14,784 nt of DNA. It comes from Chloroflexia bacterium (GTDB lineage: Bacteria > Chloroflexota > Chloroflexia > QHBQ01 > JADMIH01). The notes below the pieces were generated by a model. The model was not told the DNA's origin. It did not search any database and saw only the letters and a program-made list of their open reading frames with translations. The stretch covers positions 1 to 14,784 of the forward strand of contig JAICKM010000083.1 of the NCBI GenBank assembly GCA_025927935.1. The letters are read 5' to 3'. Shown here piece by piece: positions 1,761-2,130 of this stretch; within the stretch, counting starts at the first letter, position 1, and every line of letters starts with the position of its first letter. Made by a program: the position numbers and the translations under genes.

Positions 1761-1790
1761 TTGACTCCAACCGGCCTTCCGTGCTATAGT
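1761..1790 (+). promoter_or_regulatory. Predicted sigma70-type promoter of the metY leader transcript
   Basis: TTGACT (1761-1766) and TATAGT (1785-1790) are separated by 18 nt, giving a start site near 1797. This places a transcribed leader of about 330 nt upstream of metY, long enough to contain the leader peptide and the alternative hairpins described below. It diverges from the kinase promoter at 1630-1659. The stretch 1660-1760 between them shows no further recognisable signal. Confidence 0.7.
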
Positions 1791-1882
1791 CGGGACAATG
1801 CTTCCGCGGGGGAAGCAGGCGCGCCCCGCCGCCCGGCTAGCCGCCGAGGCGGGCGCGAGATACCTTGCAACAGGAGCAGGCG

Positions 1883-1981
1883 ATGCACACAGGTAGCAGC
1901 CGGATGACCACCCAGGGTCGTGAGGCCATGGCGGTCCTGGCGCGCGCCTGCGGCATGGGCATGGGGTGTTGTCCCGGATAG
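1883..1981 (+). CDS. Cys/Met-rich leader peptide (attenuator uORF of metY), 32 codons
   Basis: A short reading frame with ATG at 1883 and TAG at 1979-1981, encoding 32 residues. AGGAG (1872-1876) lies 6 nt before the ATG, as good a ribosome site as those of the large genes here. The C-terminal end reads CGMGMGCCPG: Cys codons 23, 29 and 30 and Met codons 25 and 27 are packed into eight codons just before the stop. Met codons 8 and 16 are further upstream. It is followed at once by two mutually exclusive hairpins and then by metY, whose product makes homocysteine for Met (or Cys) synthesis. The peptide probably has no function of its own; its translation speed over Cys and Met codons would report charged tRNA levels. 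Layout and codons are seen directly; the regulatory role is inference from the trp/his/cys leader-peptide paradigm. Confidence 0.82.
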   Translation: MHTGSSRMTTQGREAMAVLARACGMGMGCCPG

Positions 1982-2015
1982 ACGCGCCCTGACCTGCATT
2001 GGTGCCGGCGCGTCT
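1939..2015 (+). promoter_or_regulatory. Attenuator: competing pre-emptor and antiterminator pairings
   Basis: Segment 2 (1980-1988, core GACGCGCC) is the exact complement of segment 3 (2007-2015, core GGCGCGTC), a 9-bp antiterminator stem. Segment 3 is also the 5' arm of the downstream terminator, so the two cannot coexist. Segment 1 (1939-1944, GGCGCG), inside the leader reading frame just before the Cys/Met codons, can pair with 1983-1988 of segment 2. A ribosome stalled on Cys23/Met25/Met27 would cover segment 1 and leave segment 2 free to form the antiterminator. A ribosome that reaches the TAG at 1979-1981 would cover segment 2 and let the terminator form. Pairings are read from the sequence; no folding energies were computed. 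Confidence 0.78.
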
Positions 2016-2037
2016 CATTGGGAGATGCGCCGTTTTT
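2006..2037 (+). terminator. Intrinsic terminator of the metY attenuator
   Basis: An 11-bp stem (2006-2016 with 2022-2032, one G-U pair), a 5-nt loop and an immediate run of five T (2033-2037). It lies between the leader peptide and metY, roughly 95 nt before the metY start, so in the default state it would stop transcription before the gene. Its 5' arm is shared with the antiterminator stem. Confidence 0.85.
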
Positions 2038-2130
2038 GTTGTCCGCGCCGGGATCCCGCCGTGGGGTCCAGGCGTAGGGCGATGGTTTGTGACCGCCGCC
2101 GCAACCTGAATTGAGATAGGAGTATGTGAC

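Follow-up and report, generated by a model that had tools for sequence, protein, structure and literature searches.

What would decide whether RNA polymerase reaches metY is the question raised by a 14,784-nucleotide stretch of DNA from a Chloroflexia bacterium (hereafter the window, meaning the whole stretch that was analyzed), in which an intrinsic terminator stands between a promoter and this structural gene. Upstream of the promoter lies a histidine kinase gene (positions 415–1590, minus strand) in divergent orientation, so that no gene is evident upstream whose transcripts the terminator could end. Enzymes of the MetY family make homocysteine or cysteine, which makes metY a fitting target for sulfur amino acid control. 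A preliminary description of this DNA had proposed leader-peptide attenuation, with cysteine and methionine as the control amino acids. The analysis reported here supports the proposal in that the terminator, the antiterminator, and the geometry of the stop codon fit such a system, and the codons at which a stalled ribosome would free the antiterminator are rich in Cys and Met. We regard the leader as a plausible candidate, well formed, statistically unusual, and mechanistically coherent, and consider it likely to be a ribosome-mediated transcription attenuator of metY that responds mainly to charged tRNA-Cys and possibly to charged elongator tRNA-Met.

Architecture of the metY leader

The leader is composed of the following parts.

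1761–1790, plus strand: sigma70-like promoter (TTGACT at 1761–1766, 18-nt spacer, TATAGT at 1785–1790, with TG before the −10 element)
1797–1882, plus strand: putative 5′ UTR ahead of the short frame, strongly folded, with GC-rich hairpins
1872–1876, plus strand: Shine-Dalgarno (SD) sequence AGGAG of the short frame, six bases 5′ of the ATG at 1883
1883–1981, plus strand: candidate leader-peptide frame of 32 codons (translation MHTGSSRMTTQGREAMAVLARACGMGMGCCPG, ending in CGMGMGCCPG; stop codon TAG at 1979–1981)
1939–1944, plus strand: segment 1 of the preliminary description, complementary to 1983–1988
1949–1972, plus strand: candidate control codons Cys23 (1949–1951), Met25 (1955–1957), Met27 (1961–1963), and Cys29-Cys30 (1967–1972, TGT TGT)
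1980–1988, plus strand: segment 2, the 5′ strand of the antiterminator, AGACGCGCC
2007–2015, plus strand: segment 3, the 3′ strand of the antiterminator, GGCGCGTCT, inside the 5′ arm of the terminator
2006–2032, plus strand: intrinsic terminator hairpin (3:4 pairing; 2006–2016 with 2022–2032, 11 pairs, 8 of them GC)
2033–2037, plus strand: terminator U-run (the hairpin is followed by TTTTTGTTGT)
2118–2122, plus strand: SD sequence AGGAG of metY
2131–3534, plus strand: metY, O-acetylhomoserine (O-acetylserine) sulfhydrylase (TIGR01326 match of 689 bits; cut-off 495)

The promoter, the SD-led 32-codon frame, the terminator, and the antiterminator formed by segments 2 and 3 were confirmed letter by letter where the preliminary description had placed them. 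The promoter at 1761–1790 is the sole promoter-like match on either strand of 1500–2400 (shuffle mean 0.1), and transcription would be expected to start near 1797. The hairpin at 2006–2032 with its TTTTTGTTGT is likewise the sole terminator-like site in 1500–2400 (shuffle mean 0.4). As AGACGCGCC (1980–1988) and GGCGCGTCT (2007–2015) are exact reverse complements, they form a perfect 9-bp antiterminator, and the overlap of the stop codon (1979–1981) with segment 2 that had been described before amounts to two bases. Neither Pfam nor NCBIfam gave a match to the 32-codon frame, and no consensus promoter-like site (at least 9/12) was found between 2037 and 2131. The region 1797–1882 holds another GGCGCGCC, a potential competitor of segment 2 or 3.

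For an estimate of how often such an arrangement arises by chance, the layout was defined as an SD-led frame of 8–50 codons with its stop at a perfect complement, of at least 7 nt, to the 5′ arm of a terminator, irrespective of peptide composition. It was recovered in none of 3,000 and in two of 28,000 dinucleotide shuffles of 1791–2130 (2/31,000), a rate that serves as a guide and not as a strict probability because the definition was drawn up with the case already known. The layout occurs once in the whole window (both strands). A scan of 192 loci (1,009,781 bases, both strands) returned it at two distinct places, L040, which is a SAM riboswitch (RF00162, 91.4 bits), and L098, which has no Rfam match. 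It was found at none of 66 further-scanned loci (30 cysK, 30 metX, and 6 histidine-kinase; 258,079 bases, both strands). For cysK and metX, these are the best 30 of longer lists; six loci are shared with the 192-locus scan. SD-led frames with at least three Cys in the last twelve residues number 29 in 1,239,918 bases (both strands); two of these have a terminator within 120 nt, and both were rejected as leaders, one (L125) lying on the strand opposite metY and the other (L214) downstream of cysK.

The codons for the candidate control amino acids are clustered at the end of the SD-led short frame. At the rates of the nine window genes (14 Cys and 77 Met in 3,801 codons), the binomial chance of at least three Cys in ten codons is 5.9e-6 and that of at least five Cys plus Met is 1.8e-6, both for a ten-codon stretch picked after the fact. 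Of the Cys codons, TGT accounts for one of 14 in those genes but for two of three in the short frame. Natural DNA upstream of metY served as a control: among 168 distinct regions (up to 450 nt), none contains an SD-led frame with at least five Cys/Met in its last ten codons, and a single one has at least three Cys in the last twelve (L137, where the frame is 66 nt long and begins 373 nt upstream). Cysteine is favored over methionine as the main signal, as it is the much rarer residue, two of its three codons are rare and in tandem, and the pair lies at the switch point predicted with RNA to 2028 (below). Methionine makes up about 2% of the window codons, the frame has three other, more 5′ Met codons including the initiator, and Met shortage affects initiation too; methionine is a possible second signal.

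Predicted folds and the proposed mechanism

Folded alone, the antiterminator (1980–2016) and the terminator (2005–2033) have energies of −21.7 and −21.3 kcal/mol, respectively, and with two hairpins of about equal stability the position of the ribosome would decide between them. Folds were computed for exposed RNA at equilibrium; the leading edge of the ribosome was set 12 nt beyond the first nucleotide of the A-site codon, and the RNA was taken to be exposed to 2028, an assumption for what lies outside the polymerase at the U-run. The predicted antiterminator/terminator values are then 1.00/0.00 for ribosomes at codons 20–28, 0.99/0.01 at Cys29, 0.65/0.41 at Cys30, 0.37/0.63 at Pro31, and 0.00/0.63 at Gly32 and the stop codon, so that a ribosome must reach or pass the Cys-Cys pair before termination becomes possible. 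For edges of 10–14 nt (RNA to 2028), the terminator first prevails at one of codons 30–32; with the 10-nt edge, codon 20 fails too (0.22/0.49). Modeled stalls 5′ of codon 20 gave mixed outcomes.

Exposure of the RNA to 2037 moves the switch point from Cys29-Cys30 to codons 27–28. The terminator now wins for stalls at Gly28 (0.99), Cys29 (0.99), and Cys30 (1.00), the values at Met27 are 0.57/0.42, and the antiterminator is clear at codons 20–26 only. An exclusive antiterminator with a 5′ strand that a ribosome at the stop codon hides and a stalled ribosome leaves free is therefore predicted for the control codons with RNA to 2028; at 2037 it is predicted for Cys23 and Met25 and marginally for Met27, but not for Cys29 and Cys30. 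Consequently, the tandem Cys codons would work only if an antiterminator that has already formed outlasts the arrival of the 3′ arm of the terminator, and its computed barrier of 7.4 kcal/mol is not large. In the fold model with RNA to 2037, Met25 is well within the range of permissive codons, with Met27 at the border, which makes a Met stall workable and, at this length, more robust than a stall at Cys29 or Cys30. Naked RNA to 2026 forms the antiterminator (1.00) from each of the starts 1797, 1866, and 1883, and naked RNA to 2037 does so in a start-dependent manner (0.87, 0.12, and 0.93, respectively). Because the naked RNA favors the antiterminator from all starts at 2026 and from two at 2037, a ribosome that has come to the end of the frame seems to be required for termination.

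A mechanism consistent with these folds would run as follows. RNA polymerase would start near 1797, and a ribosome would meanwhile translate the 32-codon frame. If Cys (or Met) were short, the ribosome would halt between codons 23 and 30 and leave segment 2 (1980–1988) free to pair with segment 3 (2007–2015), and this 2:3 pairing would block the terminator and allow metY to be transcribed. If both amino acids were plentiful, the ribosome would come to Gly32 or the stop and cover segment 2, the 3:4 hairpin would form, and transcription would end at 2033–2037. The full dual-sensor version, in which shortage of either Cys or Met stalls the ribosome at codons 23–30 and frees the antiterminator, is one that we entertain tentatively and would not bet on; both end products would then switch homocysteine synthesis, with read-through as the untranslated default.

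In trp-type attenuators, the stop codon overlaps segment 2 and follows the tandem control codons within a few codons, and 2:3 pairing competes with 3:4 pairing. The metY leader shares this arrangement of codons, stop, and alternative pairings, but its 1:2 hairpin is transient at best, from which it follows that an untranslated metY leader is predicted mostly to read through. A 1:2 hairpin is typical of trp-type attenuators and not of all attenuators. The preliminary description had held that segment 1 can pre-empt segment 2, and this survives in part. The complementarity is real, as segment 1 (1939–1944) pairs with 1983–1988 in the isolated piece 1939–1989, and a weak case can be made for transient pairing: with a ribosome in codons 1–13, 1:2 pairing reaches up to 0.71 in RNA ending at 1995 or 2006, 0.00 at 2016, at most 0.03 at 2028, and at most 0.43 at 2037. 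A standing pre-emptor was rejected, since 1:2 pairing is 0.00 in 15 of 15 naked transcripts (three starts by five ends) and appears transiently only with an early ribosome. In the model, segment 1 may nevertheless slow antiterminator formation.

Relation to known leader systems

The closest known system is uORFC-8-2, found upstream of cysS in Rhodobacterales, for which ribosome-mediated attenuation was proposed from comparative data on 145 examples with a consensus structure (PMC8632094). The two share a short frame, tandem Cys codons, and an intrinsic terminator with a U-run, a likeness drawn from the description of the motif. They differ in that there is one example here against 145, that the gene is metY here and cysteinyl-tRNA synthetase there, that the phylum is another, and that the Cys pair, usually at codons 14–15 in uORFC-8-2, is Cys29-Cys30 in the metY leader. 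The word methionine is absent from the main text of the uORFC-8-2 paper. In light of this Cys-Cys uORF attenuator, a restriction of Cys leader control to Actinobacteria is an outdated view (PMC8632094).

Cysteine-rich upstream frames are also known from mycobacteria, in which polycysteine short ORFs control genes by cysteine (Canestrari et al. 2020, via PMC9094748 and PMC13236596); these ORFs are leaderless, whereas the frame of the metY leader is SD-led and accompanied by an intrinsic terminator and an explicit antiterminator. The cys and cbs operons of Actinobacteria have Cys leader peptides in which, as in the metY leader, consecutive Cys codons occur close to the end of a short frame that precedes sulfur genes. 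In the account of PMC1262725 they show no conserved hairpin that could be a terminator, unlike the metY leader with its explicit terminator and antiterminator, and the methionine operons of Actinobacteria have no conserved RNA structures in front. For Xanthomonas, control by the met 5′ UTR is described as mainly translational, in a text that does not mention “leader peptide” (PMC6230763). By 2010, according to PMC2965389, no leader-peptide system had been shown outside Proteobacteria and Actinobacteria, ermC apart, groups to which that paper adds Firmicutes.

Chloroflexi have genes under SAM riboswitches as well as T-boxes (PMC3766115). With the SAM-I riboswitch (RF00162) the metY leader would have transcription control of metY in this group in common; the RF00162 aptamer has no match in the window, and no Rfam family covers the leader. 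No published case of leader-peptide (transcription) attenuation in Chloroflexus or Chloroflexi was found in the literature searched, which was mostly without subscription journals. Within that literature, the metY leader would be an attenuator of known kind that is new for metY and probably for the phylum. If so, classical leader-peptide attenuation extends to Chloroflexota, where it would govern an enzyme that forms homocysteine or cysteine, and the leader lets one test Met codons as control codons.

metY relatives and alternative explanations

From 205 metY loci, many of which (within a set of 80) come from other phyla, 168 distinct upstream regions were obtained (at least 150 nt, with a match reaching the first 60 residues); L284 and L285 were left out, their matches lying inside MetY only. 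The layout is present in one of the 168, namely the SAM riboswitch of L040. No convincing homologue of the 32-codon peptide was found by tblastn in 82 genomes: the matches in 59 of them (E ≤ 10, best 0.004) were not taken as kin, and in 10 of the 20 loci recovered a stop interrupts the matching stretch (alignments of all 20 and the DNA of three were examined). The pattern Cys-Gly-x-Gly-x-Gly-Cys-Cys gave a single match in 400 genomes of the phylum, with no terminator in the next 500 bases, and was put down to chance. The same holds for the leader DNA, which has no convincing homologue in 158 genomes of the class, where matches in 147 (E ≤ 1, best 2.0e-4) are GC-rich and at most 56 bases long among those listed. 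Viral contigs yielded no leader pattern and three MetY relatives at 49–64%.

A strong terminator lies within 450 nt upstream in eight of the 71 regions with at least 66% MetY identity (L081, L111, L002, L005, L102, L016, L108, and L034); three such “terminators” in L081 and L111 fall within a permease-coding stretch and were discounted. Two further observations come from other loci. In a Thermoflexales genome (L066), a Cys/Met-rich, SD-led frame of seven codons, MMCMCSG, is present at a distance of 162 nt from metY, between a terminator and the gene and thus behind the terminator. In G497, the DNA immediately 5′ of metY holds a selenocysteine tRNA (anticodon TCA; L185, 2871–2968).

The candidate leader attenuator thus appears, from sequence comparison, as a single instance among the relatives compared. 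The preliminary description had named relatives that keep metY and lack the frame and its codons as grounds for refutation. The 168 regions are of this kind, which weakens the claim and does not refute it, given that the nearest relative with readable upstream DNA has 78% MetY identity and a different gene context. Closer MetYs (P0001, 96%; P0002, 87%; P0003, 85%) are known as proteins, and the contig of G430 (81%) ends just before a readable metY. Leader peptides turn over fast, so that absence at or below 78% MetY identity carries limited weight.

In a MetY tree of 50 chosen rows, the window MetY belongs to a clade of 30 rows (support 97/91) that also contains Kallotenue, G423, G424, G430, G417, proteins named Roseiflexaceae or Kouleothrix, and some Acidobacteriota. 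Outside this clade fall eight MetYs from the order to which Kallotenue belongs, each encoded directly before a metX match. When 20 loci were compared with Rfam, a SAM riboswitch was found upstream in 9/9 metX-type metY loci (L115, L116, L117, L119, L122, L127, L129, L131, and L135, being nine of 25 such loci) and in 0/11 others. In Kallotenue papyrolyticum (G157) and G424, ABC-transporter genes (ATPase PF00005 and permease PF00528 in both genomes, with substrate-binding NMT1 PF09084 also present in G424) form a row that closes with the orthologue of the window metY, and a SAM-I riboswitch precedes the first ABC gene (L140, 3092–3198, minus strand; L141, 3380–3487, minus strand). The metX-type loci together with L140 and L141 agree with the prior expectation that SAM riboswitches are usual in this group. 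In these two genomes, the metY of the ABC row is a second sulfur locus beside the metX-linked metY. In G423 and G417, the orthologue lies behind other genes, with no terminator at threshold and no convincing leader frame. Sensing systems are known to be exchanged at the same gene (PMC2965389), and the metY leader, if it is an attenuator, would point to a possible swap of a SAM riboswitch for tRNA-charge sensing among bacteria with orthologous metY; in the dual-sensor version it would stand where related bacteria have a SAM riboswitch.

Other explanations of the locus have to be weighed against a sulfur amino acid attenuator. The leader could be a general translation-stress attenuator, in which any stall in codons 20–30 antiterminates, whether caused by an antibiotic, broad starvation, or the Pro-Gly-stop context, and the amino acid make-up is incidental. 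Each stall at codons 20–29 does give the antiterminator irrespective of residue (edge 12 nt, RNA to 2028), and antibiotic-sensing uORFs have been published (e.g. PMC12121999). We nonetheless consider this explanation unlikely, as Cys and Met are enriched at precisely these codons (the post hoc 1.8e-6), TGT-TGT is rare, and the gene behind the leader is a sulfur amino acid gene and not a resistance or rescue gene. It is quite unlikely that there is no switch at all, the frame either encoding an unrelated small protein and having a terminator of its own or being there by chance, and metY having a promoter downstream of 2037. Such a reading is favored by the lack of conservation at metY among relatives with readable DNA and by the G423 and G417 orthologues, which stand behind other genes with no terminator at threshold; against it, 2037–2131 lacks a consensus promoter-like site (at least 9/12), and a plain terminator has no need of a perfect antiterminator at the stop, which is rare by chance.

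The hairpin switch could also be real and be worked by a small molecule or protein that acts on the 5′ region 1797–1882, with an incidental frame. This region folds strongly and SAM riboswitches precede metY in relatives, but no Rfam family reaches its gathering threshold in the window; a relaxed Rfam search of 1592–2140 gave two minus-strand matches far below gathering scores, which were taken as chance. For a ligand-operated switch, moreover, there would be no need for the antiterminator strand to begin within the stop codon of a frame that has an SD sequence. We judge this explanation very unlikely. The tRNA-charge-dependent attenuator is the preferred reading.

With regard to its surroundings, metY sits within a dense row of signaling genes (window 415–13582), comprising the following.

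415–1590 (minus strand) and 3693–5471: HisKA_3-type kinases
about 5770–6462: OmpR/PhoB-like regulator (start inferred)
6726–8240: HAMP kinase
8380–9876: NtrC-type regulator
10125–12026: GAF kinase
12050–12979: receiver-GGDEF protein

The NtrC-type regulator (8380–9876) matches Chloroflexia- or Chloroflexota-labeled proteins at 65–86% among the best 120 of 2,497 matches, a result that assigns the organism to this phylum, and by this protein the nearest class genome compared is G450 (66%). A MetY match at E ≤ 1e-100 is absent from G450, G448, and G449. In the translation of the receiver-GGDEF protein (12050–12979), the GGDEF signature reads GGDNF; with this signature, the protein may not make c-di-GMP.
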